Positions 34,753-62,934 of a stretch of 64,000 nt of DNA are shown here, piece after piece. How positions within the stretch are numbered: the first letter of the stretch is position 1; each line of letters begins with the position of its first letter. The notes below the pieces were generated by a model. It was not told the origin of the DNA and did not search any database. It saw only the letters and a list, made by a program, of their open reading frames with translations. The stretch is from Clostridia bacterium (lineage in GTDB: Bacteria > Bacillota > Clostridia > Oscillospirales > Acutalibacteraceae): NCBI GenBank assembly GCA_017507805.1, contig JAFWAC010000005.1:17696-81695 (forward strand). The letters run 5' to 3'. A program made the translations under genes and the position numbers.

Positions 34753-34798
34753 CAAGTTACACCTTCCTTTCTTTTATACTATGTACATTTACAAGAAT

Positions 34799-34948: not shown

Positions 34949-35845
34949 TTATAGGTTTGAATATTGTGTAGCGGTTATTCCAACCCTTCGCTTAAACAAA
35001 CGGGAGAAGTAATTTGGATTAACATAACCAAGTCTTCTTGCTATTTCTGTAAAGGTCAGATTGCCCTCAGAAATCATAAGCTTTGCGCGCTCGATTTTTA
35101 TTCCGATAAAATAATCAATTATACTTTCCCCGATTTCAGCCTTAAAGCTTTTTTGTAGCTGAGAAATGCTAAATCCGTTATCCTTAGCGATTTGTTCAAG
35201 GGTAAGATTTTCAGTAATATGCTCTTCCAAATAGTGTTGGATTTGCTGTGTTATAGACTTTTGACGTGTCTGCTTAGCAAAGGAATTTATTCGGTATTCC
35301 TTAGATTCGCCGATACCCCTTTGTCTAAGTGACAGCAAAAGTAGTTCTATATGAAGCTTCAGCATCTGCTCAGAGCCAAAGGGCTGTTGGTCGGATGCTT
35401 TTTCTTGCATATAGGAAACACCGTTCTTCACACGGTAGCCCTCATAAAGCCTATGCGAACATTTAAGGGCATAATAAAGGTTTTCGTGTTCAAAATTATT
35501 AATTGCAATAATTTTGTTTTTAAAGAAATTCAAATCCGAGGATTTTGGATAAAAGGAAACCGAAATAAAGCTTGCATTGCCGTTTTCAAAAGGTGTGATA
35601 CTAAACGCCTGTCCCGGCTCAGTAAATACAATCTCACCTTTATTGATAATGTATTTATTACCCAACGTAGTAATAACAGCAGTACCCGATTCTATAAATA
35701 TAAAGGTCCAAAAATCAAACGAACCATTTATAGATTTCTCATCATTAGGATACGATACTGCCAATTCTCTTCGAAAGATAGAAACCAAGCGGGCAATTTC
35801 AATCTCCATTTTTAGTTTAATTGTTTTAAAACTATTTTCAGCCAT
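34949..35845 (-). CDS. AraC-family regulator of the glycan locus
   Basis: 298 residues from ATG 35845, where GGGAG is 7 bases upstream. N-terminal cupin-like domain (IFIESGTAVITTLGNKYIINKGEIVFTEPGQAF) and a C-terminal double HTH (LTLEQIAKDNGFSISQLQKSFKAE, then LTFTEIARRLGYVNPNYFSRLFKRR, VGITATQY). Last gene of the minus-strand locus, 60 bases after the hydrolase-like gene. By position it is the likely activator of the sugar-uptake genes. Confidence 0.9.
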   Translation of the reverse strand: MAENSFKTIKLKMEIEIARLVSIFRRELAVSYPNDEKSINGSFDFWTFIFIESGTAVITTLGNKYIINKGEIVFTEPGQAFSITPFENGNASFISVSFYPKSSDLNFFKNKIIAINNFEHENLYYALKCSHRLYEGYRVKNGVSYMQEKASDQQPFGSEQMLKLHIELLLLSLRQRGIGESKEYRINSFAKQTRQKSITQQIQHYLEEHITENLTLEQIAKDNGFSISQLQKSFKAEIGESIIDYFIGIKIERAKLMISEGNLTFTEIARRLGYVNPNYFSRLFKRRVGITATQYSNL

Positions 35846-35907
35846 AAGCCTTCTCCCGACATAACCTATTAATCTGAATAATAACACATTTTATAATAAT
35901 ATGCAAA

Positions 35908-37780: not shown

Positions 37781-38653
37781 TTATGATATTTGAAGCCCAT
37801 CGTATCCGGGGATAATATTCCAATCCCAACTGCTGAAAAAATCTACCATTTCATCAGGACCTAAAGTATTCAAATGGCAAATATGTGTGAGATATAGAGG
37901 TGTAGTGGTATCAATATTACCGAAATCCTCTAACTTCTCAAGCGCAAATTTCAAATTTTTATAATCGAAATGTCCCTCTAAATAATCGGGAAGCTCATGG
38001 TCACCATAGGTGCACTCAATAACCGCAAAATCGAATTTAATACCGCAGTTTTTAAGATGATCCCACGTGTTTTGACGGTACCAACCCGTATCACTCGCGT
38101 AAAGGAAGGTTTTACCCTCTTTATTGGTGATAATATAATTATAGCCAAGCTCATCCACACCGTAACCGTAATGGCTGGCATAGATGGGAGTAACCTTCAT
38201 ACCGCTTATATCATAGGTTTTATATGCTTCAAGCGGTACAAGCTCATAATTTTTCTCAAAAAATGTTTCCTTGCCAACATTGACAGGCATTACATATTGC
38301 TTTGCAAAATGTGTAATCTGCTTCAAAGTTAAATCCGAGCCGAAAATTTTAACCTTACCCTCAAGAAAAGGTCTGCAGGCAGAACGAAGCATTAATTCAC
38401 TTGCAAAAATATGGTCCTCGTGAGAATGTGTTATAAAAATATTTTTAAGTCCTCTGAGGCTTATACCGTTTTTCACGCATTGATTATAAATATCAGGACC
38501 GTAATCTATAAGACTTTCCTCATCTATCAAAAAATCGCTTCTTGTGCGATTGTATTTACCGCCCATTTCACGCGCGCGTGTACAGGTAGGACATTCACAA
38601 AAAGGCGCAGGAATTCCCTCACTTGCACCTGTTCCCAAAATAACAGACTTCAT
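37781..38653 (-). CDS. PhnP-like metallo-beta-lactamase-fold hydrolase
   Basis: 290 residues. Metal site THSHEDH with H76, H78, D80 and H81, later H155-region ASHYGYG and DTGWY. N-terminal CPTCxRA motif (C21, C24) matches the PhnP zinc-binding feature. PhnP is a 5-phosphoribosyl 1,2-cyclic phosphodiesterase of phosphonate use, but no phn genes are nearby, so here it may process a different cyclic phosphate or sugar ester. Confidence 0.8.
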   Translation of the reverse strand: MKSVILGTGASEGIPAPFCECPTCTRAREMGGKYNRTRSDFLIDEESLIDYGPDIYNQCVKNGISLRGLKNIFITHSHEDHIFASELMLRSACRPFLEGKVKIFGSDLTLKQITHFAKQYVMPVNVGKETFFEKNYELVPLEAYKTYDISGMKVTPIYASHYGYGVDELGYNYIITNKEGKTFLYASDTGWYRQNTWDHLKNCGIKFDFAVIECTYGDHELPDYLEGHFDYKNLKFALEKLEDFGNIDTTTPLYLTHICHLNTLGPDEMVDFFSSWDWNIIPGYDGLQIS

Positions 38654-40228: not shown

Positions 40229-41662
40229 TTAAATATCGAATTCATACAGCAGATGGTATCCGCCGATTGCATCAATATTATTACTAAGCCTTGCATAACG
40301 CTCCATATCATTTTTAAGGTAGAAGCAAAGCTTATAATGTCCTTTATTTTCAGGTGTTTTAATAACCGCTTGAACCTTATGAGTAAGGATTTTTGTATCA
40401 AGATAATCCTCAGGGTTATGACTATACCACTTTTCTGGGTTGCCTGCCTCAACACTTGATACAACATTATTATCACCGTCCAAAAGGACAAAACCACTCT
40501 TTAAGCAGAATGCAGCGGACATACCGTAATTCTTAAGCTTTAACTCAATAGAAAGGTAAGAATCAGGCTCGTTCTCACCTGCAACCGCCACAGACTGCAG
40601 CTCAACCTTGTAGCCCAAATGGTCACGCATAAAGTCGAAAGCAACGCGCTCTACATCGTTACCCTTTTCATCCTTAAACCAAGAGGGACAATAAGCGATT
40701 TTATTTTCCTCTAAAATTTCGGGGGTAATCGGCTCGCTCTTCCACGGCCACATTGTGGGCATATAGTTTTCTTCGGGTATCGGTTCACCGCCCTTGCCGT
40801 CATAAAGGCCATGCAAAATACTCATTGTATTCTGCCAGTGGTGTGCCGCTTCCTTTATAACCTCAAGTCCTGTAGGCCAGATATTACGGTTAATATTAAT
40901 AGGTCCGCAATTAAGCTCGCCGCCCTGTGGGGTATATGCCCCCTCTTCACAAAGCTGTTGCCACTGAGGTGTACCCATTATAAAACCGCCCGATTCCCAT
41001 TTATCCTGCTCGCCGTACATTGAATCGTTATGAACGGCGATTTTTGAATAGTAGGGATTGGTTTTTTCAATCAGGTTTTTGTATTCAGGCAAACGCAGAG
41101 AAAGATAAATTCCGTTAGGCTCACAAAGGTAACGCATAAGTGCCTTTGCCACATTAGCGTAATTAACCTCAGGCTTTTGATAACAGGAAGCCCATTCACC
41201 GTAAGAACCGATAAATCCGCCCTCAACAGAGTGAATATATTTTTTGTTTCTTGCTATCATAGGAGCCAACTGCTTAATATGCCTTATAATAGTTTCCTCG
41301 TCCGCACCGCGTTCGGGGAAATTCAAATCATCACAGTAAGCAAAGCGAAGCATAACCTTGAAATCCTTAAGCTCGCAGAAATCATAGAACTTTTCCATAG
41401 CTTCCATTGCTTCGTCGGGAATATCCATACCGCGGTATTCGGTAAGATAAAAGTATGCCATACAGCCATGGCAAGGCACCTTTATACGGGCATAATAATT
41501 ATCATACACCTGCTGATAATATTCCATCGGGTTGCCCGAATCAACTGCTCTTTGAGCATACATAACCATATGTGTTCTGTAGGCACGGTCAGGATTGTCA
41601 AAAAGCAGGCTGTCCCCCTCACTTGTGAGAGGCTTTAGTTCTTTATAAAAATTAATTTCCAT
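40229..41662 (-). CDS. DUF4874-DUF4832 protein, cytoplasmic form
   Basis: 477 residues from ATG 41662 (MEINFYKELKPL) with GGTGA upstream; a longer TTG start is less likely. No signal peptide or lipobox. The N-terminal DUF4874 part has FDNPDRAYRTH, FAYCDDLNFPERGA and SVEGGFIGSYGEWAS; the middle has GAYTPQGGE and AHHWQNTMS; the C-terminal DUF4832 beta domain has RDHLGY, KNYGMSAAFC and PEDYLDT. The family is found beside polysaccharide genes but has no proven activity. Paralogue of the next gene and of the C-terminal half of the 1036-residue protein. Confidence 0.82.
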   Translation of the reverse strand: MEINFYKELKPLTSEGDSLLFDNPDRAYRTHMVMYAQRAVDSGNPMEYYQQVYDNYYARIKVPCHGCMAYFYLTEYRGMDIPDEAMEAMEKFYDFCELKDFKVMLRFAYCDDLNFPERGADEETIIRHIKQLAPMIARNKKYIHSVEGGFIGSYGEWASCYQKPEVNYANVAKALMRYLCEPNGIYLSLRLPEYKNLIEKTNPYYSKIAVHNDSMYGEQDKWESGGFIMGTPQWQQLCEEGAYTPQGGELNCGPININRNIWPTGLEVIKEAAHHWQNTMSILHGLYDGKGGEPIPEENYMPTMWPWKSEPITPEILEENKIAYCPSWFKDEKGNDVERVAFDFMRDHLGYKVELQSVAVAGENEPDSYLSIELKLKNYGMSAAFCLKSGFVLLDGDNNVVSSVEAGNPEKWYSHNPEDYLDTKILTHKVQAVIKTPENKGHYKLCFYLKNDMERYARLSNNIDAIGGYHLLYEFDI

Positions 41663-41713
41663 AAAAATCACCAAAATTTAATACGCTGAATTTTATCTCA
41701 ATAATGCCACTGT

Positions 41714-41740
41714 TGGGCTACTGCAAATCGCAGCAGCCCA
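41714..41740. other. Intergenic hairpin without T-run
   Basis: Stem TGGGCTACTGC / GCAGCAGCCCA with one mismatch and a 5-base loop, between two DUF4832 genes. Possible mRNA stabilising or processing structure. Confidence 0.4.
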
Positions 41741-41747
41741 CAATTAA

Positions 41748-43394
41748 TTAAATTACAAATTCGTGAAGAAGTGCATATCCGTCTGCGGTTTCAATATCAT
41801 TTGCAAGTGTTGCAAATTGATTAATTCCGTTCTTTAAATAAAAAGCAACATAGTATTTACCCGATTTAGACGGAAGTTTCACATTTGCAGAAACATTATG
41901 AGTAAGTATTGTTGTATCGAGATAATTTTCGGGGTCGTGGCTGTACCACTTAGAGGGTGAGCCTGCCTTAACAGTTGATACAACATTATAATCCGAGTCA
42001 AGAATTGCAAAACCGCTTGTCATACAAAAAGCTGCAGAGAAACCGTAGTTCTTAATCGGCATTTCAACCTTAACTGTAGCTCCGGGCTTGCTTTCACCTG
42101 TAATCTTAACCGACTGAGCCGCAATTCTGTAGCCCAAATGGTCGCGCAGGAATTCAAACGCATTACGTTCAACCTCGGCACCCTTATCGTCAATAAACCA
42201 ATAGGGGTCAAACACCACCTGAATACCCTTCATAGTAGCAGGGGTAACGCTTTCTTCGGCCCATCTATCCATAATAGCATCATCATCAGAGCTACACTCA
42301 TATTTACCGTGCCATACGCTCATAGTATTACGCCAATGGTGACCAGCCTCAGCAACAACCTCAACACCAATCGGGATTTTGCCTTTTTTCACATAATCTC
42401 CGTTATTAAGAAGCTCGCCACCTTGAGGTGTATATGCACCCTCGCGGCACATCTGAGCATAATCATCGGTACCGTATTGATAACCGCCTGAATGCCAGCC
42501 TTCTCTTAACTGTTCACCGTAAATAGCATCGTTATGGTTGCCTATGTATTTATAATATTTATCGGTTTTAGGAATAAGATTCTTATATTTCGGCAAACGC
42601 AACGAAAGATAAATTCCGTTAGGCATACAGAAATATTTCATAAGTGCGCGTGCAACCGTTTCATAGTCAACCGCAGGCGACTGATAAACACTCGCCCACT
42701 CGCCATAAGAGCCGATAAAACCGCCCTCAACAGTGTGAACAGTATGCTTATATTTCTTAATAAGCGGAGCCAATTGTTTAATATGGCGAATAATTGTTGC
42801 CTGGTCTGCACCACGTTCAAGATGATTTAGGTCGTCACAGTAAGCAAAACGTAAACATGTGGTAAAGCCTTTAGCCTCACTGTAAATAAAGTAGTCCTCA
42901 ATCGCAGCCATTGCCTCATTAGGAATATTCATACCGCGGTATGCTGTAAGATAGAGATAAGTCATAGAAACATTAATCTCCATATCGCAATAGCCGAAGA
43001 AAACGTCATAATCCTTTTGATAGTATGACATCGGGTCGCCTGATGCTACCGCTTCGTCCACATATAAGGTGAGATGTGTTCTGAAGCCTCTATCAGGATT
43101 ATCCTGCATGATAGCATCGCCGCTTGAGGTAAGGGGTTTAAGCTTTTTATTAACATTAACCGAAACCTTGGCTGTGCTATCAGAGCCGCCTGCCTGTGAA
43201 TCAACAGATGAGGTCTCACTCTGAACGTCATCATCAGAGGATGCATCTGACGAATCAACATCAGATACATCACCCTTAGAATCGGTGTTAATACTGCTGT
43301 TATCCGAGCTAACATCCTCTTTGCCGCAGCCCGAAAGCCCCGTAACCATAATCATACAAAGGCATAATATTAGACATAAAAGTCTTGATTTCAT
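41748..43394 (-). CDS. DUF4874-DUF4832 lipoprotein
   Basis: 548 residues from ATG 43394 (AAAGGTG upstream). Lipobox LSGC (Cys about 22), a ~60-residue Ser/Asp-rich linker, then the same two-domain body as the neighbouring cytoplasmic paralogue (QDNPDRGFRTHLTLY, RFAYCDDLNHLERGA, TVEGGFIGSYGEWAS, GAYTPQGGE, HHWRNTMS, RDHLGY, KNYGFSAAFC). Anchored to the outer face of the membrane. Conservation of the acidic and His/Trp residues across all three copies suggests an active or binding site. Confidence 0.83.
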   Translation of the reverse strand: MKSRLLCLILCLCMIMVTGLSGCGKEDVSSDNSSINTDSKGDVSDVDSSDASSDDDVQSETSSVDSQAGGSDSTAKVSVNVNKKLKPLTSSGDAIMQDNPDRGFRTHLTLYVDEAVASGDPMSYYQKDYDVFFGYCDMEINVSMTYLYLTAYRGMNIPNEAMAAIEDYFIYSEAKGFTTCLRFAYCDDLNHLERGADQATIIRHIKQLAPLIKKYKHTVHTVEGGFIGSYGEWASVYQSPAVDYETVARALMKYFCMPNGIYLSLRLPKYKNLIPKTDKYYKYIGNHNDAIYGEQLREGWHSGGYQYGTDDYAQMCREGAYTPQGGELLNNGDYVKKGKIPIGVEVVAEAGHHWRNTMSVWHGKYECSSDDDAIMDRWAEESVTPATMKGIQVVFDPYWFIDDKGAEVERNAFEFLRDHLGYRIAAQSVKITGESKPGATVKVEMPIKNYGFSAAFCMTSGFAILDSDYNVVSTVKAGSPSKWYSHDPENYLDTTILTHNVSANVKLPSKSGKYYVAFYLKNGINQFATLANDIETADGYALLHEFVI

Positions 43395-43435
43395 ATTTTT
43401 AACACCTTTCATTTTGAAAGCAAACTGTTTATAAC

Positions 43436-45511
43436 TTATCTCTTTTTCTTAGCGAGCGGATACATAAATACGGCATTCACACCAAGCATAAATATTATTA
43501 TAACGTAGAAAATTACATTATTATCGCCTGTTGTGGGAATTTCGCTTGAATCGTCGCCAAAGCCGTCCTCATCATCGAAACCGTCTTCAAATCCGTCCTC
43601 ACCGAAGAAATCATCATCAAAGAAATCGTCGTCATCATCGCCGCTGTTGATAACGGTAATAGAATCGTAAATTGCAATCTGCTGACCAAGTGCATCAATT
43701 GCGCGAACAACTACCGAATATGAAGTATCAGGCTCCATACCTGTAAGTGTAGCAGAAGTGCCTGTAGCGGTCTTAACATCAATTGCAGTATATACATTAC
43801 CCTCTGGGGTAAAGGTTTTGCTGTAAAGCTCAACCTTGTAGCTTGCGGCACCCTCAGTAGCTTCCCAAGTAACAGTTACATCTGTATCGGTGTAATCGGA
43901 AGAATCGGGGTCGTTAATAACCTTATCGGTTGTAGAATCGGGAAGAATATCGAACTTGTCGCCAACTTTAACGTCATCTGCAACCTGAACCAAATCCTCA
44001 GCCTTTACTACAGAACCGTCAAAAAGGTTTCTCGCACACTTTGTTTCTGCACCCAAATAAGTAGCGGTTGTACGTCCGCCAATGTGGTTTACAATCCAAG
44101 GAGTTGCAAAGTAGAGTGCATCTCCCGACCAACCGGGTATGTATAAGTTAATCTGCTTAATAGCATCTTCCTTAGTCAAGGATTCCTGACCTTCTACGCC
44201 CCAGAATGCGGAATCCATAAGAATAAAGCCTTCAAATCCGGCGGGCAGGTCAAGAGAATATGCCACAAGCTGAGTTTCCTGCCACTTGCTTTCACCCTTA
44301 GGCAAGAGCCAGCATTTTCCGCCATACTGCCACCAAGAGCGTGATTTTGCAAGGTTACCGCCTGCATAGAAGTTACCCTTGATTTCAACAGTAGTAACAG
44401 CTGAATCCTCAGGCATTTTAACATACATCATAATACCCTCGGCACCTGTTGCCTTATTACCATCTGCATAAATAGAAACGATACAGGAATCTGCACCCTC
44501 GTAGCCAGTTACTCTGCCCTCTGACTTGATAAGTGGATAGCCTGACATAGGATTGGGGTTCTGGAGTGCAGTTACAGAATTCTGATTGCTCTTGAAATCA
44601 AGAATAGTATCTGTGCCGATTTTCTCGCCAACCTTAAGGTCTCCGTAGATAGGCATATCGGTAATCTTCATAATATCAAGTGCGCCGTAATCGATAGCTT
44701 CGCCGTCATAAGCGGGTAAACCTACACCTGCACCTGCGTTACCGCCACCTGTATTGCCACCACCTGCAGGAGCTTCGAAATAGGTCAATTCCTTATCGCC
44801 CATAACAATTTTGTCTGTAGTAGGAAGCTTGTCTGCACCTAAAGTGGCGCGGTCAACAAGCAAGGGAAGACTCATATCAAGAGTAGTAAAGCCATTACCT
44901 TTCCAAGCAATCAAACCATGAATGATATCGGTATCTGCCATAGTAGTTGAGCCGTTGTTCTTTAGAGTATCAAAAGGAATGTAGAGGTAACCGTCAAAGC
45001 CAGCCTTAAATGTAGGGCTGTAGCCCTCTACAGGAGCCTCGGTCCACTTTGTATTGCCCTTTTCAAGGGTATACCAATTAACATATCCCCATTGGTATCT
45101 CTGAAGCATATTGCCACCGCTCTTGTAGATAGTATAAAGCGGAAGCTTAAAATCGGTTGTCGAATCACTTTTTATACGGATAAGCCAACCTGAAACCTTT
45201 GAATTTTCCACAGGAGAGAAATACATATGGCACTGTCCGTCTGCACTGGGGTTAGTATATTTCATACCAACAGGCAACTGGAAGTTAGACGGGTCCTCAA
45301 TAGGGGTGAACTGAGTCTTGTTTTTCTGAATCCAAGACGGAAAAGCTTCGTCTGTAGGATTAACGGTGTACTCACCGTCACCTGCTTCATTTAAGAATTT
45401 AGTTTCATAAACTTTTGTATATGTGCCTGCCGCACCTGCAAGCATTGTAGCTGAAGCTAACATACAAAGCATAACCGACAACGCACATATAATTGCTAAT
45501 ATTTTTTTCAT
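43436..45511 (-). CDS. Cell-wall-anchored multi-domain surface protein
   Basis: 691 residues. Signal peptide to about 28. One copy of the ~225-residue module (starts TYTKVYETKFLNEAGDGEY near 30), a second related beta module (about 265-515), a fibronectin type III domain (about 535-635: VTVTWEATEGAASYKVELY ... LTGMEPDTSYSVVVRA), a 25-residue Asp/Glu/Phe/Gly run, then IPTTGD, a membrane helix and KKKR, i.e. a sortase-type sorting signal. Likely holds glycan-binding modules on the cell wall. Same family of modules as the two following large proteins. Confidence 0.72.
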   Translation of the reverse strand: MKKILAIICALSVMLCMLASATMLAGAAGTYTKVYETKFLNEAGDGEYTVNPTDEAFPSWIQKNKTQFTPIEDPSNFQLPVGMKYTNPSADGQCHMYFSPVENSKVSGWLIRIKSDSTTDFKLPLYTIYKSGGNMLQRYQWGYVNWYTLEKGNTKWTEAPVEGYSPTFKAGFDGYLYIPFDTLKNNGSTTMADTDIIHGLIAWKGNGFTTLDMSLPLLVDRATLGADKLPTTDKIVMGDKELTYFEAPAGGGNTGGGNAGAGVGLPAYDGEAIDYGALDIMKITDMPIYGDLKVGEKIGTDTILDFKSNQNSVTALQNPNPMSGYPLIKSEGRVTGYEGADSCIVSIYADGNKATGAEGIMMYVKMPEDSAVTTVEIKGNFYAGGNLAKSRSWWQYGGKCWLLPKGESKWQETQLVAYSLDLPAGFEGFILMDSAFWGVEGQESLTKEDAIKQINLYIPGWSGDALYFATPWIVNHIGGRTTATYLGAETKCARNLFDGSVVKAEDLVQVADDVKVGDKFDILPDSTTDKVINDPDSSDYTDTDVTVTWEATEGAASYKVELYSKTFTPEGNVYTAIDVKTATGTSATLTGMEPDTSYSVVVRAIDALGQQIAIYDSITVINSGDDDDDFFDDDFFGEDGFEDGFDDEDGFGDDSSEIPTTGDNNVIFYVIIIFMLGVNAVFMYPLAKKKR

Positions 45512-45555
45512 TAGAAATCGCCTTTCTTAACTTAAAAAGAATGTCATTTTGAGTG

Positions 45556-45591
45556 GGAAAACATTCAACCCAAAAAGATTGAATGTTTTCC
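45556..45591. other. Hairpin between two large surface-protein genes
   Basis: Perfect 13-base arms GGAAAACATTCAA and TTGAATGTTTTCC. No T-run on the minus strand after it, so possibly an mRNA-stability or partial terminator structure. Confidence 0.5.
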
Positions 45592-45612
45592 AAAATTACA
45601 TAATTATACTAT

Positions 45613-48600
45613 TTATCCGAGTCTAACGCCTTCACCTGCAAGGTATTTCTTCAAGCGAATAAGGTCAGCAACGTCAACCTTACTGTCGCCGTTAGCATCT
45701 AAATACTTCTTAGCTGATACATCGTTGTTCTTAAGCAGCCACTTTCTCAAAGAAGCAAGGTCGGTTGCACCAACAGTGCCGTCAGCATCAGCGTCGCCGA
45801 CAGATGAGAAAAGTACTTTTTCCTTACCGTCAAGTATAATCTTGTCAGCAGTAGGAACACCTCTGGCATCTAGTGAAGAACGCTTGACAAAGAGTGGCAT
45901 ACTTAAGGTAGCCTCTGTATAGCCCTTACCCTTAGCAGTAACAATACCGCCAATAAGGTCGGTGTCTGCCATAACTGAAAGAGAGCCGTTATTATTCATA
46001 GTATCAAACGGAATGTAAATATAACCATCAAAGCCTGCAGGAAGTGATACACCGTAATCCTGACCCTCAGTGTAAACCCATTCAGTAGCGCCCTTAGCAA
46101 GCACATACCATTTGGTGTAATAACTGTATCTCTGCTGATAAGTCTCACCGCCGTTTGTACTGTAAGCAATATAAATCGGAACAGTAAAGTTTGAAGTAGC
46201 GTCACTTGAAATATGGATTATAAAGCCTGCGGTATCAGCATATGACCTTGGAGCAAAGTATACTGAATTGTTTACATCTGTATCGGTCTGGTTTGTATAC
46301 TTAAGACCTGTTGCAAAACCAAAACCTGTGGGGTCAACTGTAGGAGTGAAGTTTCTGATAGTTTCGTTCATTTGGCTGTACTGCAACCACCAAGGAAGCT
46401 CTTTGTCATAAGAATTAACTTGATACTCGGCATCTCCAGCTTCGTTTAAGAACTTAGCTTCATAAGCTTCGGTAGTAGGCTTTTCAATAACAACATCATC
46501 ACCCGAACCGCCTTCGTTAGAGAAGAAAGCGATTTCATTATCTTCAAACAATACCTTATCTGCTGTAGGCATAGCCTTGTCATTAAGTGTCTTGCGGTCA
46601 ACAAACATAGGAATACTGAGTGTAGCAGTTGTTGTAAGACCCGAAGCATTCCATACTGAAATACCGCAGATAGCGTCTACATCAACAAAGGGTTTGCTAC
46701 CGTTATCAGAAAGAGTATCAAACGGGATATAGAGATAACCGTCAAAGCCTGCGGGCATTTCTACACCGTAGCCGTCAACTGCAACTTCTTCCCAGGCAAT
46801 ATCGCCCTCTTCAAGTAAAAACCACTTAACACCGGAATGCTGATACTTTAATTTAGCACCGTCATTTTTAAAGATTAAATAAATCGGGATTTTAAACGGA
46901 GCAGTATTATCACTTGTTACGCGGATAATATAACCGGCAGCCTCAGCATAGGTCATTGTTGAGAAATAAAGCTGTGCCTGACCGCTTGCAGGATTATTAA
47001 ACTGCATACCTACAGGAAGACCGAAATCAGAATTATCTGCGGTAGGAGTAAAGTGAGTATTAACCTGCTGCATCCAGGAGGGGAATGCAGTGTCATACGG
47101 AAAAACAGGATATTCAGCAGTTCCTGCCGAATTCATAATCTTAGACTCATATACCTTTGTATAGGTTGTTGCAGACTCGTATGTTTTCGAGAAGAACTCA
47201 ACCTCGCTGTCTTCAAATATAACCTTATCGGCAGTAGGAAGTCCGTTTACAAGGGTATCACGGTCGACAAACAAGGGCGCGCTAAATGTAGCATTCATCT
47301 CAACGCCATCGCGTCCGCGAGCTAAGAAACCGCAAATTTCAATATCATCTCTCCAAGCACCCATAGAGCTATTAGGCATACTGTCAAAAGGAATATATAT
47401 GTATCCCTCAAAATTAGCAGGAATTCTTGGACCGTAATTTTCGCCTGTAGCACTCCTCCAAGCAGTATCGCCGTCTCTAAGAATATAATATTTAACATAA
47501 TAGTTATATGCCGCAGCTACACTGTCACCATTAACCTGAAGAATATACATAGGGACATCATATTCAGCATTAAGATGGTTTTTAACGTGGAAAATGTAAC
47601 CCGAAGCCTCACCGTAGGTCATAGTAGAAAACTGCATATAACCATTATTTGTGCTGGTTGGCTCGAACTTCAATCCTGCAGGAAGACCGAAATCAGAACG
47701 GTCGCGTACAGGTGTAAAGTGTTTAGCGGTAGTTGTCTGCACGCTTGAGGGGAATGCAGTGTCACGTGGTGAAACAGCAATTTCTGCCGTTCTATTCGCA
47801 TTCATAAATTTAGATTCGTATACTTTAGTATAAAGCGAGGTTTCTTCGTCATCTGAAGTATTGTCGTCTGCCGAGAAGAAAGTAACCTCAGCATCCTCAT
47901 AAATAACCTTGTCTGCAGTCGGAAGACCGTTTACAAGTGTTGCGCGGTCAACGAACATAGGCATACTGATAGTAGCCTCTGTAAAGCCTGAGCCCATCCA
48001 AGCAACTATACCGTGAATAGTATCGGTATCTGCCCAAGCAGTACCACCGTTTGACATTGACTCAAAAGGAATGTAAACATAACCGTCAAAGCCTGCAGGG
48101 AATTCTGCACTGTAGCCTGCGCCTGCATTTCCATCCTTAAGTTCCCAATTAGATGCACCATCAGCAAGAATATACCAATTTGTGTAATAATGATACTTCT
48201 GCTGCATATCAACGCCGTTAGTACTTTGGATAATATACATAGGAAGCTTAAAACTGCCTGTTGCATCACTTTCGATACGGAAGATATAACCCGAAGCCTC
48301 GGCATAGGTCATAGGTGCCATATAGATTTGTGTCTGAACATCGCTGCTGGGGTTGGTAAACTTTAAACCTGAGGTAAGACCGAAATCAGAAATATCCTCT
48401 GTTGGAGTAAAATAAGCGTTTGCCTTTTGTATCCAAGAAGGAAAGCTTACGTCGGCAGGTCTAACGGTATATTCACCGTCACCCGCCTCATTAAGGTAGT
48501 ATGGTTTATATACCTTAGTGTAGGTTGCTTCGGCTTCAGCAAATACAAGTGATGAAACCAATAAGCAAAGTGCGATGGTAATTGCGAAGGCAGTTTTTAG

Positions 48601-48621
48601 AATTTTTTTCACATTAATCAA
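45613..48621 (-). CDS. Secreted four-repeat protein with C-terminal dockerin
   Basis: 1002 residues with a signal peptide (to about 31). Four tandem ~225-residue modules start near residues 33, 264, 487 and 718; each begins YTKVYxxxxxNxAGxxEYxV and has PAGFDGYxYIPF and (M/L)FVxRxTL...PTADKV. A type I dockerin occupies about 940-1002 (DADADGTVGATDLASLRKWL and DANGDSKVDVADLIRLKKYL, two Ca-binding repeats). The module is not one I recognise by name; beta-sandwich carbohydrate binding is inferred from context. Would be tethered through a cohesin encoded elsewhere. Confidence 0.72.
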   Translation of the reverse strand: MINVKKILKTAFAITIALCLLVSSLVFAEAEATYTKVYKPYYLNEAGDGEYTVRPADVSFPSWIQKANAYFTPTEDISDFGLTSGLKFTNPSSDVQTQIYMAPMTYAEASGYIFRIESDATGSFKLPMYIIQSTNGVDMQQKYHYYTNWYILADGASNWELKDGNAGAGYSAEFPAGFDGYVYIPFESMSNGGTAWADTDTIHGIVAWMGSGFTEATISMPMFVDRATLVNGLPTADKVIYEDAEVTFFSADDNTSDDEETSLYTKVYESKFMNANRTAEIAVSPRDTAFPSSVQTTTAKHFTPVRDRSDFGLPAGLKFEPTSTNNGYMQFSTMTYGEASGYIFHVKNHLNAEYDVPMYILQVNGDSVAAAYNYYVKYYILRDGDTAWRSATGENYGPRIPANFEGYIYIPFDSMPNSSMGAWRDDIEICGFLARGRDGVEMNATFSAPLFVDRDTLVNGLPTADKVIFEDSEVEFFSKTYESATTYTKVYESKIMNSAGTAEYPVFPYDTAFPSWMQQVNTHFTPTADNSDFGLPVGMQFNNPASGQAQLYFSTMTYAEAAGYIIRVTSDNTAPFKIPIYLIFKNDGAKLKYQHSGVKWFLLEEGDIAWEEVAVDGYGVEMPAGFDGYLYIPFDTLSDNGSKPFVDVDAICGISVWNASGLTTTATLSIPMFVDRKTLNDKAMPTADKVLFEDNEIAFFSNEGGSGDDVVIEKPTTEAYEAKFLNEAGDAEYQVNSYDKELPWWLQYSQMNETIRNFTPTVDPTGFGFATGLKYTNQTDTDVNNSVYFAPRSYADTAGFIIHISSDATSNFTVPIYIAYSTNGGETYQQRYSYYTKWYVLAKGATEWVYTEGQDYGVSLPAGFDGYIYIPFDTMNNNGSLSVMADTDLIGGIVTAKGKGYTEATLSMPLFVKRSSLDARGVPTADKIILDGKEKVLFSSVGDADADGTVGATDLASLRKWLLKNNDVSAKKYLDANGDSKVDVADLIRLKKYLAGEGVRLG

Positions 48622-48777
48622 CCTTTCTGTTTTTTATTTGCAAAATACGGTGTTCTCCAAACAGCCGTATAAAACAACATTTTTAACACTTTATACATAT
48701 TATAAAATAAAACTTTTATTAAATCTATGCATTATTTAATTGTGTTTCTACACAATTAAAGATTTTGTAGCACTAAA

Positions 48778-51700
48778 TCACAGATAGAATTCGTGAAGAA
48801 TATTGTATCCGTTTACAACATCAATTCTGTTGCTGAACCTTGCCTTTACGCCCATAGTGTTTTCAAGGCAAAATGCTATATAATACTTCCCTGTTGCTTT
48901 AGGCGCGTTAATTTCCGCATTAATATTGTGTGTTAGAACGGTAGTATCAAGATAATCCTCAGGGTTATGGCTGTACCAAGTTTCCGGCTTGCCTGCACTA
49001 ACCTTAGATACAACATTATAATCCTCATCAAGGATAACAAAGCTACTGTTCATACAGAAAGCGGCGGACATACCGTAATTCTTAAGTGCAAGATTTAAAG
49101 TAAGCTTGCCTGAAGCCACATCCTCACCCGATACACTAAAGCTTTGTGCCTCAAGCTTATAGCCCAAATGGTCGCGTATAAAATCGTAAGCATAGCGGGT
49201 AACTGTATTGCCGTTATCGTCCTTAAACCAAGAGGGGCAGTAAACTATATCATTAGCCTCTAATATTTCGGGGGTTATTACCTCTTTGCGCCAATTGTTC
49301 ATTATGGCGTTTTTACTATCCTCAAACATACCGTGCCAGACGCTCATAGTGTTATGCCAATGGTGAGCCGTTTCCTTAATCATCTGAATACCTGTAGGCA
49401 CAGCGTTATAGTTTAACATTGCACTGTTATTAAGCATTTCGCCACCCTGAGGGGTATACGCACCCTCGTTACAAACCTGAGCCCATTCGGCAGTACCGTA
49501 CTGATAACCTCCCGAATGCCAACCGTCATTACTCTGCTCGCCATACATAGCATCGTTATTATAAGCTATATATTTATAAAGAGAATCTGTTTCAGGAATC
49601 AGATTTTTATATTGAGGCAATCTGTGAGAGAAGAAAAGTCCTGTTGGCACACAGAAGTTTTCAACTATTGCGCGGGTAACGGTTTCGTAATCAACAGCAG
49701 GTCTTTGATAAACAGATGCCCATTCACCGTAAGAGCCTACAAATCCGCCCTCAACAGTATGGATGCAATGGCGGTATTTTGCCACCAACGGAGCTAATTG
49801 CTTTATATGTCTAAGAATTGTTTCCTGATTAGCACCGCGGTCGAGATAATTCAAATCATCGCAATAGCCGAATCTAAGCATAATCTTAATCTGCTCAATC
49901 TCGCAGAATTTAAAGAAAGCTTCAATTGCGTCCATACCATCTTGGGGAATGTCCATATTTCTGTAATCGGTAAGATACAGATAAGCCAAAGCATTATTTA
50001 CACGCTCTGACTTGATATATCCAAAAAATACATCAAAATCATCGCGGTAATACTTCATCGGATTGCCCGAATCAACCGCCTCTTTAACATAAAGAGTAAG
50101 GTGGGTTCTGAAGCCTCTGTCAGGGTTTGCTAAAAGTAGCTTATCACCCTCGGATGTCAAGGGCAAAAAGATTTTATCGGTAACAACAGTAGATTGGCTA
50201 AGTATATGCTGTCTCAAGGCAATCAAATCTCCGGAATCCGCAACCGAGTCACCGTTCATATCGGCAGTAGGCTCCACTACGAAAGCCGCACCACTGACCT
50301 TTGCCATTACACGTTTCATGCGAACCAAATCTCTTACATCAAGCATACCGTTTCCGTCATTATCTCCGGGGTTATACCCTACCGCACCAACAACAGCCTC
50401 GGCATAAGTAGCGACCTCGCCGGTAAAGGGATTGCGCGCATTTTTGGTTATACCATCAACCAAAACATCAGCCGTTTCGCCGATATTGGTAACAATTATC
50501 GGTGCGCTGAAAATAACAGGTTCTGTACCATCCATATCGGTAATTCTGAGATTCATAGTTGTAATAGCATTATTAACCGTCGGCTTAACATCACCAACAA
50601 TTTGGTTGTAAGGCACCATTACGTAACCCTCAAAGCCATCAGGCAGGCTAACAAAGTAATTACTTACAGCCACATTCTGCCAAGTAATTCCGTCCTTAGC
50701 CAAAAGCTTAAAGGTTCCGCTGTGGGTATATGTGTTATAGGTATTATCAAACTGAAAATCAACTCTTAGGAATTTTCCCTTAGCGGTCTTAGGCAATTTA
50801 ACATAAAACATTGCCGCTTCACCGCCGAGTGAAGATGAAGCATCTATACCGAGTGAGCCAATCCAATGATTAGAAGTAGTAGAATTTGTCACCTTTTTGG
50901 TGGACACCATAGGCATATCGGCTATAGCAACTGTACTTTCAATAAATTCGGCTTTACCCGAACGTCCATCCCAATGAACCTGAGAATAAATCGAAATCGG
51001 TCCTAATGGTGCTTCTGCACTCAGTTTGGTGGATTTAACACGGCAAATATCAAGCTTGCCGTATTTATTATCCTCACCGTAATACGCGGGAATACAGCTA
51101 CCCTCACCGAAATAGCCCAGCACCTTGTCACCCAAATCCACAGCAGCTACAGTAGGCAAGCCGTTAGAAGCAAGTGTACCCCTTTTAACAAACATGGGAA
51201 TACTGTAAATTATTTCCTCGGCAGTTGTGCCGTCCCATAATAGCAGACCACAGATTTTATCGGTATTCTGCCAATCAGGATTTAACTTATTATTTTTGAA
51301 AGCATCAAATGGTATATAAATATAGCCATCAAAGCCTGCCGACAGGGTAGGTGCATAACCGCTGACAGTAGCTTTCTGCCAAGCAGTATCACCTGATTTT
51401 AAAGTGTACCAATAAGTACCGCTGTACTGATATTTAGAAGTATTATTGCTTCCATCGCCTGCATTATAAACAATATACATAACAGGCTTTACACCGCTAC
51501 TGTCCTTTGGTGTTTTAACATATAAAAGAAAACCGCAAGACTCGCCATAGGTCATAGGCTCAACTAAAATCTGTGAATTAGTCTGATTATTTACCTTATT
51601 TAAATTTTTCTCGGTATACTTAATCCCACAGTCAAGCGAGAAATAAGAAGGGTCTTTAGTAGGAACACAAACATCAGCACCTAAATCCACTGTTTTCGGT

Positions 51701-51888
51701 AAATCGCCCGAGGTTTCAGTGATTTTTACAGGTTCGCCATCTCTGTTAATAAAGCTCGGCACAATAACCTCTGTGTAAGAAACATCTTCGGCAGAAGCTG
51801 TTAATATCCCGTTATTAGTTATTGCAATTGGTTGAATCAATGTAAAAACAAGTGCTAATACACAAAAACAAGTAAGTATTTTTTTCAT
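48778..51888 (-). CDS. Secreted module-dockerin-DUF4874-DUF4832 protein
   Basis: 1036 residues. Signal peptide to about 34; a ~225-residue module as in the two preceding genes (about 35-255); a second beta module (about 265-500); an internal type I dockerin (about 505-575: DNDGNGMLDVRDLVRMKRVM, DMNGDSVADSGDLIALRQHI); then a full DUF4874-DUF4832 unit (about 585-1036: ANPDRGFRTHLTLY, TVEGGFVGSYGEWAS, AHHWHNTMS). A dockerin in the middle of the chain rather than at the end is unusual. It links the binding modules and the putative catalytic family in one polypeptide. Confidence 0.75.
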   Translation of the reverse strand: MKKILTCFCVLALVFTLIQPIAITNNGILTASAEDVSYTEVIVPSFINRDGEPVKITETSGDLPKTVDLGADVCVPTKDPSYFSLDCGIKYTEKNLNKVNNQTNSQILVEPMTYGESCGFLLYVKTPKDSSGVKPVMYIVYNAGDGSNNTSKYQYSGTYWYTLKSGDTAWQKATVSGYAPTLSAGFDGYIYIPFDAFKNNKLNPDWQNTDKICGLLLWDGTTAEEIIYSIPMFVKRGTLASNGLPTVAAVDLGDKVLGYFGEGSCIPAYYGEDNKYGKLDICRVKSTKLSAEAPLGPISIYSQVHWDGRSGKAEFIESTVAIADMPMVSTKKVTNSTTSNHWIGSLGIDASSSLGGEAAMFYVKLPKTAKGKFLRVDFQFDNTYNTYTHSGTFKLLAKDGITWQNVAVSNYFVSLPDGFEGYVMVPYNQIVGDVKPTVNNAITTMNLRITDMDGTEPVIFSAPIIVTNIGETADVLVDGITKNARNPFTGEVATYAEAVVGAVGYNPGDNDGNGMLDVRDLVRMKRVMAKVSGAAFVVEPTADMNGDSVADSGDLIALRQHILSQSTVVTDKIFLPLTSEGDKLLLANPDRGFRTHLTLYVKEAVDSGNPMKYYRDDFDVFFGYIKSERVNNALAYLYLTDYRNMDIPQDGMDAIEAFFKFCEIEQIKIMLRFGYCDDLNYLDRGANQETILRHIKQLAPLVAKYRHCIHTVEGGFVGSYGEWASVYQRPAVDYETVTRAIVENFCVPTGLFFSHRLPQYKNLIPETDSLYKYIAYNNDAMYGEQSNDGWHSGGYQYGTAEWAQVCNEGAYTPQGGEMLNNSAMLNYNAVPTGIQMIKETAHHWHNTMSVWHGMFEDSKNAIMNNWRKEVITPEILEANDIVYCPSWFKDDNGNTVTRYAYDFIRDHLGYKLEAQSFSVSGEDVASGKLTLNLALKNYGMSAAFCMNSSFVILDEDYNVVSKVSAGKPETWYSHNPEDYLDTTVLTHNINAEINAPKATGKYYIAFCLENTMGVKARFSNRIDVVNGYNILHEFYL

Positions 51889-54125: not shown

Positions 54126-54830
54126 CTATAAAAATATTTCCATACTAAGATTTCTGATAAAGCTTACTATTTGCTGTGATATACTGAAAAATAAAAGTCC
54201 TAAAAACAAAAGTGCGAATATCGCAAGTGCTGTAACAACAGCAAGAATTACTGTTTTAGAAACGGTAAACTGCTGACAAACTATCATTCCCAAAAAGGCT
54301 AAAATAAGTGTCCAACCCACCGCTATAACGCTCAAAACACTAAGCATTACAGCCTCGTCCGAAGATGCAACATAGGAAAGCGCAACGCTGATAGGATAAA
54401 GGAAAAGATACGGCAAAAGTGAATATGCAGTCATTATCCAGATTTCCTTAAAAGCACCCTCACCGTCAAACAAGGTGCTTACCGCCCAGTTGCAGATAGA
54501 CCAGATAAGAACAAGACCTGCAGTAGTAGCAAGTATCATCCAAAAGCCCATTCTCTCGGCTTCGGGGGCGCCGAAAAGATAAGCGGTACAAGCTTCACCT
54601 ATAAGTCGCTCGAAAAGGAAAAGCGCAACCATTATGTTAGCAAGCGCAAGGGATGCCTTTCCTTCATATTTAATATCATTAAATGCATCAAGCGGATGGG
54701 TTATAAGCCTGAAAAGGGTGTAAACCGAATCCTTGGAGATTGAAAGCTTAGCCTCACCGCTTTTAATCTGAGAGCATTTATAAATAAAAAATTTAAATAT
54801 CTTTTTTAAATATTCCATATAATCACCCAT
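54126..54830 (-). CDS. Yip1-domain membrane protein
   Basis: 234 residues; the ATG at 54830 overlaps the stop of the NHL/TPR gene (TGATG). Five or so membrane helices after a short N-terminal segment with YTLFRLITHPLDAFNDIKYEGKASLALAN, the bacterial Yip1 hallmark. Role in bacteria unknown; part of the NHL-Yip1-DUF5696 trio. Confidence 0.78.
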   Translation of the reverse strand: MGDYMEYLKKIFKFFIYKCSQIKSGEAKLSISKDSVYTLFRLITHPLDAFNDIKYEGKASLALANIMVALFLFERLIGEACTAYLFGAPEAERMGFWMILATTAGLVLIWSICNWAVSTLFDGEGAFKEIWIMTAYSLLPYLFLYPISVALSYVASSDEAVMLSVLSVIAVGWTLILAFLGMIVCQQFTVSKTVILAVVTALAIFALLFLGLLFFSISQQIVSFIRNLSMEIFL

Positions 54831-56311
54831 CAATCCCCATTACGGTCAATGCCTTTTTTCGCAGAAATAAGCCATTTCCTGATAAATTTAACCGCAAATA
54901 TTAAGCCTACAATCAAAATCACCGCTAAGGGCAGCATCCACACAAGATTATAACGTACAAATTCCTTGCGATATTCTTTAAGGGCTATTGAATAAAAATA
55001 AGGGTCGTTTCCCTTTTGGAGCATTTCCATAGCCTCTTTAAAATCGCCCTCTTGCAAGAGTGCCCGCCCGATACTTCTGTAAGCTATAACATAATTAGAA
55101 TTAAGCTTTAAAACCTCTTGCCATTCCTCAACCGATTCACTGTAAAGACCTGTATTGTACTTTTCCAATGCATTGTGTACCTTTACAATGTAATCCGTAG
55201 GTGAAAATACTGTAATACAGTTACGGTCAGCATCAAGTACCAAATAGCTGTCGCCAAGCTTTTCAATAGCTACAGGCTTTTCGAGCTTTCCCTTTTCGTC
55301 TCCTCTACCACCGAAAATACTAATCATATTACACTCGCGGTCGTATTGAAAAATTCTGCAACGGGTACTATCAACAGCGCAGAATATACCGTCCTCATCG
55401 GTGTGAATATCGGTAAACGAACTGCTTATAAGCTCGCCGTTTTCATAAGAGGTTTCAAGGTCGCCAAAAGCCACTGCATCACGCAATGTTTGAGGTGTGC
55501 GCAAAATATTATCACCCAAAGCGTTAAGGCACTTAATTTCGTCCCCTACCTCTACATTTGCGGCGGTAGTATAAATATATCCGTTTTTACCTATATAGAT
55601 ATTGTTATAGGGAAGCGGCAAGTTTTTCTCCATCTTGTCCTGCTGTTCGTCGGAAAAAATATCCTTCCACATAGCAATTAATTTTACACCGATGGTAACC
55701 TTGACCTCATTTGGTGCGAAAAATCCCATAAATTCGCCCTTTTCGTTGTACTGCAAAATACCCTGATAAATGTCGGGTGCTACAACGTAAACAGTAGAAT
55801 CCTTATCAACCGCTACCTTTGATGGCTTAAACTGTATACTTTCGTTAACTGCAACAAGATTTTCCCCAAGCATTTTTCTTACAACGTTTCTGTTTTTATC
55901 TATTGCAACCACACGGCCGTTTTCTGTATCGCAAATGTATAAAAGACCGTCCTTGCCGTAGAAAACACCCTCGGGTGCAAAAAATTCGCTCTGCTCGCCG
56001 TTTTCGATAACATAATCAATTACCTCAACCAATCCAAAATCAAGGTCGGTTACAATAATCCTGTTATTCTCTGTATCTGCTATGTAAATATTAGTATCAC
56101 TAACATAAAGGTCCTGAGGGTTTCTTAAAGCACTGTCCGTAATATCCTCACCGTAAACAATTTTTTCAGCAGAATATGCTTCAGGCGCGTGATAAGAGCG
56201 GTTATCCTCGTCGTACATATAACTGTCATTAACGGTTATAGCTCCGCAGGATACCGAAAGCTGTAGCAAAGCAAGCAGAAAAACTGCAGTAATTAATAAA
56301 AATCGTTTCAT
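54830..56311 (-). CDS. NHL-repeat / TPR membrane protein
   Basis: 493 residues from ATG 56311 (AAAGGA upstream; an in-frame TTG is rejected). Signal peptide, then a beta-propeller of NHL repeats (IYIADTENNRIIV, LYICDTENGRVVAID, RIFQYDRECNMI), a TPR-like helical segment near 390-440 (YSESVEEWQEVLKLNSNYVIAYRSIGRALLQEGDFKEAMEML) and one C-terminal membrane helix with a basic tail. An extracytoplasmic scaffold or sensor tied to the membrane. Confidence 0.75.
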   Translation of the reverse strand: MKRFLLITAVFLLALLQLSVSCGAITVNDSYMYDEDNRSYHAPEAYSAEKIVYGEDITDSALRNPQDLYVSDTNIYIADTENNRIIVTDLDFGLVEVIDYVIENGEQSEFFAPEGVFYGKDGLLYICDTENGRVVAIDKNRNVVRKMLGENLVAVNESIQFKPSKVAVDKDSTVYVVAPDIYQGILQYNEKGEFMGFFAPNEVKVTIGVKLIAMWKDIFSDEQQDKMEKNLPLPYNNIYIGKNGYIYTTAANVEVGDEIKCLNALGDNILRTPQTLRDAVAFGDLETSYENGELISSSFTDIHTDEDGIFCAVDSTRCRIFQYDRECNMISIFGGRGDEKGKLEKPVAIEKLGDSYLVLDADRNCITVFSPTDYIVKVHNALEKYNTGLYSESVEEWQEVLKLNSNYVIAYRSIGRALLQEGDFKEAMEMLQKGNDPYFYSIALKEYRKEFVRYNLVWMLPLAVILIVGLIFAVKFIRKWLISAKKGIDRNGD

Positions 56312-56332: not shown

Positions 56333-57184
56333 TCAGGACTTAATGCCCGAGTGTGTCATAGTCTCAATAACAGAGCCTTGACAAACAGCAAAGACGATTA
56401 TTGACGGCAACATAAGCAAAACCGTACCTGCGGCAGTAACACCTGCACGCATAATACTGCCTGTGCTTATCTGAGAAAGCATTGTGGGAAGCAGTTTCAT
56501 AGTCTCGCTATATGTAAACTGACTGCCTGCTGTAGACCAAGCCGATACAAAGTTAAATATAGTAAGTGTAAGCAGTGCAGGCTTTACTGTTGGAAGTACT
56601 ATGTGGAAAAAAGTGTATTTCTCCCCTGCACCGTCAATACGGGCTGCTTCTAAAATTTCGTCAGGCACAGTAGACATAAACTGCATCATCAAAAACACGC
56701 CGAACGAGGTGGCAAGCAGTGGAAAAATAAGTGCCCAATAGGTATCCAGCATATTAAACTTTGACATCATCATATACTGGGGAAGCGATGTAACCTCTGG
56801 GCGGAACAAAATTGCAAAAACCACAATGTAATATATTACCTTTTTACCGGGGAAATTGCGTTTTGCCATAGGATAAGCCGCCATTGAAGCTATAAGCACA
56901 TAGCCCGCAGTGCCCACAATTGTAATAAATACACTGTTAAATAAGTACCTCTCTACAGGAACTAAGGACTGTGACTGCACTCGCACCACATTTAAAAAGT
57001 TTTGGAAGGTAGGCTCATAAACCACAAAACGCGGCGGAAAAAGAAACAACTCACTTGTAGGCTTAAAAGCATTAATAATAGAATAATAAATCGGCAAAGC
57101 AATGAATACGCCCATAAGCAACAGAAATATTGCGGCTATGGCATTGCCAAACCCAGAACGGGTAGTTCTTTTTTTCTTACGCAT
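56333..57184 (-). CDS. Carbohydrate ABC permease, MalG-type
   Basis: 283 residues from ATG 57184. Six membrane helices and the cytoplasmic coupling loop PDEILEAARIDGAGEKYTFF ... LPTVKP (EAA motif) that contacts the ATPase. Paired with the MalF-type gene immediately upstream. No ATP-binding gene occurs in the window, so a shared MsmK/UgpC-type ATPase elsewhere is expected. Confidence 0.92.
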   Translation of the reverse strand: MRKKKRTTRSGFGNAIAAIFLLLMGVFIALPIYYSIINAFKPTSELFLFPPRFVVYEPTFQNFLNVVRVQSQSLVPVERYLFNSVFITIVGTAGYVLIASMAAYPMAKRNFPGKKVIYYIVVFAILFRPEVTSLPQYMMMSKFNMLDTYWALIFPLLATSFGVFLMMQFMSTVPDEILEAARIDGAGEKYTFFHIVLPTVKPALLTLTIFNFVSAWSTAGSQFTYSETMKLLPTMLSQISTGSIMRAGVTAAGTVLLMLPSIIVFAVCQGSVIETMTHSGIKS

Positions 57185-57203
57185 ATAATTCACCCTTTCC
57201 GCC

Positions 57204-61801: not shown

Positions 61802-61814
61802 AACAGCCTCCGTA

Positions 61815-62714: not shown

Positions 62715-62934
62715 ATTAAGCCCTCCGTTCATATCTTTAAAAAAAGTTCTAAAATCATATAGACCTATTATTGCAGTTTACAGTTTAATTGTATTTTTTT
62801 ATTAGTTGAAAATCTATGAACAAAACATTTTTTTTTCTACATTATTGTGTATTATTACCACAAAACCGATTTGGAAATATATGTTAATTATACATTACAC
62901 CTTACTATCGTCTGTAGTTTTGATACTGAATTTT

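Follow-up and report, generated by a model that had tools for sequence, protein, structure and literature searches.

The proteins considered here are three paralogues in which the Pfam families DUF4874 and DUF4832 are joined, encoded in a 64,000-nucleotide stretch of DNA (the window) from an Acutalibacteraceae genome (Clostridia bacterium, assembly GCA_017507805.1, contig JAFWAC010000005.1, positions 17,696 to 81,695), and their nearest described counterpart is SIR_1591 of the Streptococcus intermedius pel cluster, in which a TIM barrel is followed by DUF4832 and which, as pure protein, disrupts Pel-dependent aggregates in the manner of the PelA hydrolase (PMC12345266). Pel in that report is a polymer rich in alpha-1,4-linked N-acetylgalactosamine (GalNAc), and in streptococci and clostridia CotH, polyphosphate polymerase, DUF4956 and DUF4832 genes have been described beside pel genes (PMC7112168). 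The window proteins resemble SIR_1591, as compared by description only, in the name DUF4832 and in a two-domain layout that its TIM barrel and seven-strand DUF4832 domain would fit, and its reported neighbours (CotH, polyphosphate polymerase and DUF4956) match those of one relative found here (L105); SIR_1591 differs in being membrane-anchored and in lying as a single copy in the operon of a polymer-making cluster (PMC12345266), whereas the window genome yields no PelG match. Because SIR_1591 has been presented as an active glycoside hydrolase, the view of the preliminary description that no activity has been described for this family can no longer be upheld, and the activity of DUF4874-DUF4832 proteins is less unknown than was stated there. 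A second point of reference is NagBb of Bifidobacterium bifidum (5wzn), which lacks a signal peptide and acts on imported GalNAc-Ser/Thr (PMC7232152), has Trp398 as its stacking residue (PMC8106489) and has the Tn antigen as a cytosolic substrate (PMC8106489, PMC7232152). P0010, a predicted enzyme of family GH129 encoded in the same block as the paralogues, is like NagBb in its full-length match, its lack of a signal peptide and an aligned stacking Trp, but differs in sharing its operon with importers and the DUF4874-DUF4832 proteins. The same domain pair has been found joined to a type I dockerin in a protein of Ruminococcus sp. ERACg_42, where the dockerin is listed last rather than before the unit, and the passage concerned does not mention a three-compartment set (PMC7480376). 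Finally, the mucinolysome of Limousia extends dockerin/cohesin glycan degradation beyond plant cell walls and includes alpha-GalNAc enzymes (GH101); it differs in that neither GH129 nor a DUF was found in the main text of the report (PMC12997984), and its mucin glycosidases were unseen on the scanned dockerin proteins of the window genome.

Against this background, the reading preferred here, in which our confidence is about even, is that a minus-strand block of 17 co-directional genes (62732 to 34949, no intervening gap longer than 156 bases) constitutes a glycan-utilisation locus of the Gram-positive kind, in which one family of glycoside hydrolase, the DUF4874-DUF4832 proteins, would be deployed in three compartments, with an alpha-GalNAc-rich glycan as the favoured substrate. 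In this model P0003 would cut the polymer outside the cell, held in a cohesin complex by its dockerin, and P0002 would do so on the membrane; the resulting oligosaccharides would be imported by solute-binding proteins and permeases, after which P0001 would cut the identical linkage again inside the cell and the cytoplasmic GH129 protein P0010 would take off alpha-linked GalNAc. Homology, conserved residues, signals and dockerin, gene co-direction and the relation to GH129 are read from the sequence, and action on Pel aggregates has been shown by others for SIR_1591; the fold, catalysis by P0001 to P0003, the order of steps and the substrate we infer. The suggestion of the preliminary description that one glycan is handled outside, at and inside the membrane would fit the block, which includes two solute-binding proteins and four permeases. 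Stepwise handling is a reasonable interpretation and, in outline, common for Gram-positive utilisation loci; what is new is that a hydrolase family found in three places is coupled to importers as well as to a dockerin complex and an enzyme of the alpha-GalNAc type. On this account a Pfam pair of 'unknown function' becomes a testable hydrolase hypothesis in which specific residues are candidates for catalysis and one class of substrate is favoured.

The shared unit and its relatives

The three paralogues lie where they had been placed. They are on the minus strand, a point on which the preliminary description is silent; this strand is open there, the plus strand being full of stops. P0001 (40229 to 41662) has 477 residues from its ATG, although its open reading frame starts at a TTG at 41674, from which its residues are numbered here; P0002 (41748 to 43412) has 554 residues with a signal and lipobox; and P0003 (48778 to 51888), of 1036 residues, combines a signal, two modules, a type I dockerin (50200 to 50370, residues 507 to 563, both calcium loops intact) and the DUF4874-DUF4832 unit (48781 to 50178, residues 571 to 1036). 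The earlier designation of P0002 as a lipoprotein stands, while the start given for it, 43394, is the next ATG after the start at 43412. All six motifs named previously (NPDR-RTH, FxYCDDLN, VEGGFxGSYGEWAS, AYTPQGGE, HHWxNTMS and RDHLGY) occur once in each protein and in identical order. DUF4874 (PF16173) matches the three at 86.9 to 93.5 bits against a curated cut-off of 30.1, and DUF4832 (PF16116) at 62.3 to 68.7 bits against 29.2; identity to P0001 is 55% for P0002 and 57% for the P0003 unit, and 58% between the latter two, so that at the level of sequence the resemblance is far beyond chance. The P0003 dockerin scored 20.1 bits in one scan (cut-off 22.9) and 24.1 bits in another, and an NCBIfam scan of P0001, P0003, P0006 and P0010 assigned no family.

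The unit is modelled as a probable TIM-barrel domain bearing catalytic Glu residues E160 and E253, followed by a C-terminal beta domain. An alignment of 13 sequences, reaching down to 15% identity, retains 16 invariant columns, with R110, Y113, H132, E160, R194, D217 and E253 of P0001 present in 13 of 13. The invariant acidic residues expected of a glycoside hydrolase are thus found in E160, D217 and E253, with their role inferred, and E160 (codon 41195 to 41197 of the minus strand, in the GEW motif) and E253 (codon 40916 to 40918, in the GGE motif) are the likely catalytic pair. This bears out in part the proposal that the conserved clusters form an active site, as VEGGFxGSYGEWAS and AYTPQGGE hold these two residues, while in HHWxNTMS the HHW varies across the wider family.

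The link to SIR_1591 would run through relatives in Pel clusters. In one genome (G349) two DUF4874-DUF4832 genes, both Pfam domains being present, lie near PelF/PelG, and BLAST places the pair against the window copies at E 3.6e-15 and 1.1e-12; the family profile A1 matches profile A7, composed of this pair and two further relatives with one row shortened, at E 2.5e-38 and a probability of 99.95%, while a control comparison with the single sequence P0010 gave E 0.27. Full-length homology to Pel-cluster DUF4832 members is therefore found through the G349 pair and the A1-A7 match. A second type (L105/L106, from genomes G369 and G421) is syntenic with SIR_1591 and shares 16 alignment positions with the window family; the gene order PelG-CotH-VTC-DUF4956-DUF4832 in G369 is that of the reported accessory set (PMC7112168). 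Among 291 genomes of the class, 10 have PelG above the cut-off, 24 have DUF4832 and five have both, DUF4832 being present in 5 of 10 PelG genomes versus 19 of 281 others (p 4.8e-4), and in three of the five (G349, G369 and G421) the two share one contig. The absence of a PelG match from the window genome places its own copies outside a pel biosynthesis cluster.

Three compartments and the gene block

The three compartments proposed in the preliminary description (inside, lipoprotein, and secreted behind a dockerin) are upheld as predictions from N-termini, lipobox and dockerin. The N-terminus of P0001 is not hydrophobic, with a best 15-residue Kyte-Doolittle mean of -0.09, and a hidden upstream signal peptide is discounted because an in-frame TAA (41678 to 41680) precedes the ATG (41662) by 18 bases. 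Classification of 26 N-termini of the family, leaving out two rows trimmed to the domain, gave 18 hydrophobic, seven without a hydrophobic stretch and one borderline. Inside and outside forms occur together in three of the six classified genomes with at least two copies (the window genome, UBA5423 and G002), and the co-occurrence of all three forms elsewhere, which had been suggested as a check, was not found: among these six, the dockerin form stands beside the other two only in the window genome. Dockerin fusion itself is not unique to the window, as the C-terminus of a relative in another genome (G286) reads like a dockerin.

The window trio forms a single lineage-specific clade (support 100/99), and a joint clade of the window and UBA5423 cytoplasmic copies was rejected by the approximately unbiased (AU) test (p 1.5e-4, with the UBA5423 copy filling 48% of alignment columns), which points to more than one probable origin of the inside form. 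As a complete account, ordinary duplication is set aside in part only, since the trio is a recent clade; that the copies are in use rather than plain duplicates is suggested because the invariant residues are retained and another inside copy has a separate origin. That cytoplasmic copies have two separate origins suggests that it is useful to cut one linkage both inside and outside the cell. Between P0002 and P0001 (41705 to 41744, minus strand) lies a strong predicted RNA hairpin without a T-run, the 73-nucleotide stretch that holds it folding at -24.6 kcal/mol (z -3.97); it may act in RNA processing or stability and set apart expression of the cytoplasmic copy.

Read from 62732, the block consists of two permeases, P0009, two permeases, P0008, a Yip1-family protein, P0006, P0003, P0004, P0005, P0002, P0001, P0007, a metallo-beta-lactamase-fold protein, P0010 and an AraC-type regulator, all on the minus strand. 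The permeases of the ABC type lie at 61815 to 62732 (the first gene, at 26.2 bits just below the cut-off of 26.4), 60833 to 61852, 57204 to 58100 and 56333 to 57193; the solute-binding proteins are P0009 (58100 to 60808), a large protein with a C-terminal SBP_bac_1 domain, and the lipoprotein P0007 (38723 to 40210, SBP_bac_8). Searches with the solute-binding proteins did not point to a substrate. On another contig of the genome (C31), and in five of seven loci (L082, L084, L085, L087 and L088) recovered by profile search of genome contigs with the narrower alignment A2, the DUF4874 gene is followed by one resembling P0007. The window genome (2.34 Mb, 87.6% complete) holds five DUF4874-DUF4832 copies, the other two, on C31, being in one case a lipoprotein and in the other a portion of a large secreted protein, while other genomes of the same family, among 150, hold at most two DUF4874 copies; DUF4874 is found above the cut-off in 14 of the 150, and in 18 at E 0.001. 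As a separate observation, C31 (95000 to 135075) carries at the contig end a second related block with these two copies, importers, DUF5696 and a CE2/GDSL-type esterase.

The complex to which P0003 might attach is suggested by nine cohesin and 30 dockerin matches in the genome, so that a dockerin with two calcium loops and cohesins are found in one genome, as in cellulosome-type systems. The 24 open reading frames scanned (dockerin matches outside the window and L009, E 1e-5, leaving out two short dockerin frames) include LRR, RCC1, transglutaminase, GH16 and GH13 domains, a weak GH29-like match and a mutarotase-like domain, and at the same threshold contain no GH5, GH9 or GH48 and no GH20, GH84, GH89, GH95, GH101, GH33 or GH136-type domain. 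Mucin glycosidases on dockerin proteins, the mark of a mucinolysome, were thus not found among the 24, bar the weak GH29-like match. The set as a whole corresponds neither to a simple cellulosome of the plant-degrading kind nor to a simple mucinolysome (PMC12997984).

The alpha-GalNAc link and alternative substrates

An alpha-GalNAc substrate is favoured through P0010 (35908 to 37761), which by full-length homology and aligned active-site residues is classed as a NagBb-type GH129 protein, GalNAc release being predicted. It matches NagBb over 604 residues (E 1e-130, 440 bits), and NagBb Trp398 aligns with its W402. Its D439 and E482 align with D435 and E478 of NagBb, which we take to be the catalytic pair. 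Because the Pfam GH129 model misses P0010, co-occurrence was assessed with P0010 itself as query (E 1e-20). P0010-like proteins occur in 10 of the 150 same-family genomes and share seven with DUF4874, which is thus present in 7 of 10 P0010-like genomes versus 7 of 140 others (p 1.2e-6; 9.2e-6 without the window's own genome; 1.2e-4 by genus without its own), although related genomes are not independent. The control, sialidase-type BNR_2, is found in 50 of the 150; within these 50 the link between DUF4874 and GH129-like proteins stays (6 of 9 versus 4 of 41, p 8.7e-4).

Several further points weigh against the proposed alpha-GalNAc utilisation locus. Deletion of SIR_1591 had no phenotype, and the protein was called a glycoside hydrolase on the strength of aggregate disruption by pure protein, with no bond-level product analysis in the parts of the report consulted (PMC12345266). 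The SIR_1591 sequence itself has been likened to the window family by description only; the match of A1 to the syntenic type (E 5.5e-8, over the C-terminal 86 columns) is weaker than that to A7, that of the small profile A2 weaker still (E 0.0016, probability 16%), and Pfam does not call DUF4874 on L105. Sequence profiles retrieved no solved structure related to the family (A1 to E 1, A6 to E 10), and the nearest solved binding protein to P0009, Lin1841, is not known to bind GalNAc. The five genomes of the same genus that a search of 398 lists have no DUF4874-DUF4832 copy at E 1e-20, and importer genes around DUF4874 are absent in 11 of 11 same-family stretches (L114 to L124), one of which (L124, from genome G056) carries a GH129-like gene. 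GH129 lies beside DUF4874 in one of the seven A2 loci (L088) and in one of six other co-occurring same-family genomes (G056), the two being on separate contigs in the other five, and the Pfam GH129 model, besides failing on P0010 in its own genome, picks no DUF4874 genome. GH129 also includes 3,6-anhydro-D-galactosidases (5opq). As both families also track BNR_2, present in 10 of 14 DUF4874 genomes (p 0.0026) and 9 of 10 P0010-like genomes (p 2.2e-4), part of the association between them may be due to glycan-rich genomes.

The foremost alternative, possible if on balance unlikely, keeps the same enzymes and compartments but takes host mucin or O-glycoprotein as substrate, the DUF4874-DUF4832 proteins attacking a core rich in GalNAc, or else alpha-GalNAc linked to peptide, and GH129 freeing GalNAc from imported GalNAc-Ser/Thr. 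The cytosolic action of NagBb on the Tn antigen (PMC8106489, PMC7232152), the BNR_2 counts just given and the dockerin/cohesin mucinolysome of Limousia, which databases place in Acutalibacteraceae (PMC12997984), all point this way, but BNR_2 is unmatched in the window genome at its 87.6% completeness, the listed mucin domains are unseen in the 24 scanned dockerin frames apart from the weak GH29-like match, and the only DUF4832 relative assayed has a polymer of bacterial origin as its target. Two GH101-like proteins on contig C12 (L150 and L151) belong to this discussion: L150 combines Gal_mutarotas_3 with a weak match to GH101, and one dockerin protein has a mutarotase-like domain also present in L150, which would favour mucin; however, their Pfam match is weak (30.8 bits) and phmmer returned no solved GH101 at E 0.1. 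If mucin were the substrate, a further enzyme family would be added to O-glycan breakdown. Between a Pel-like polymer and mucin we do not decide. A more specific form of the utilisation-locus model, put forward tentatively and itself rather unlikely, is that the DUF4874-DUF4832 proteins are alpha-N-acetylgalactosaminidases and that the block forages alpha-1,4-GalNAc polymers of the Pel type or fungal galactosaminogalactan type, the biofilm matrix of others, from dockerin complex, membrane and cytoplasm; no foraging locus for such polymers was recognised in the literature, judged by titles and abstract openings. Were this so, biofilm matrix would serve as food and the proteins would be natural biofilm-dispersing enzymes.

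A glycan without alpha-GalNAc, of plant, algal or microbial origin, on which the DUF4874-DUF4832 proteins would have diverged in specificity and GH129 would attack another alpha-galactoside, appears doubtful. The anhydrogalactosidases within GH129 make it conceivable, as do the conserved importer block without GH129 in six of the seven A2 loci (contig ends limit this count), the 30 dockerin and nine cohesin matches with GH13 and GH16 among the dockerin proteins, and the detection of the Ruminococcus DUF4874-DUF4832-dockerin protein in a lignocellulose-fed rumen consortium (PMC7480376). However, P0010 is far closer to NagBb (440 bits) than to the anhydrogalactosidase 5opq (48.7 bits, E 3.7e-12), and it keeps the GalNAc-stacking Trp. 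That the copies are glycan-binding or structural, or recent redundant duplicates without compartment logic, is very improbable: although the trio is one lineage-specific clade (100/99), hydrolysis by P0001 to P0003 is a prediction and P0001 carries Ala at the nearly invariant position G31, the residues E160, D217, E253 and other polar invariants persist at 15% identity, where binding alone would hardly need them, inside and outside forms recur in three of six multi-copy genomes, and the UBA5423 inside form is not sister to that of the window.

Other genes of the block and its surroundings

Of the remaining block members, P0008 (54830 to 56332) combines NHL repeats and TPR with a signal and, by eye, a C-terminal membrane helix, and the Yip1-family membrane protein (54126 to 54833), the metallo-beta-lactamase-fold hydrolase (37781 to 38653) and the AraC-type regulator that ends the block (34949 to 35887) were assigned by domain match. 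P0004 (45613 to 48621) has four tandem modules and a C-terminal dockerin, and P0005 (43436 to 45511) two modules, fn3 and an IPTTG-helix-KKKR tail that by eye is a sortase-type anchor. The modules of P0003 (residues 38 to 475), P0004 and P0005 (43436 to 48621, minus strand) are mutually related, about 215 residues long and up to four in tandem; they match no Pfam family, are common to dockerin and wall-anchored proteins, also occur in relatives, and possibly represent new carbohydrate-binding modules. P0006 (51904 to 54114) is a secreted DUF5696 protein, and DUF5696 proteins recur in such blocks (L007, 4648 to 6855; L085, 581 to 2815). Because P0010 also matches the DUF5696 model (E 1.3e-17), DUF5696 may be a GH129/GH101-like hydrolase family.

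Close to the contig end, 62989 to 63813 (minus strand) encodes a 274-residue protein with a fucose isomerase C-terminal domain; it was dropped as a block member, as a 256-base gap containing, by eye, an inverted repeat followed by T's intervenes; a pattern scan did not recover the repeat. On the other side of the block, 33234 to 34755 (minus strand) holds an AbiEii-type toxin and an adjacent AbiEi/DUF6088-like gene. Lastly, seven contigs of the IMG/VR viral collection (L125 to L131) carry DUF4874-like relatives of 26 to 35% identity, several with sorting-signal-like C-terminal tails, and may be bacterial sequence within that collection.

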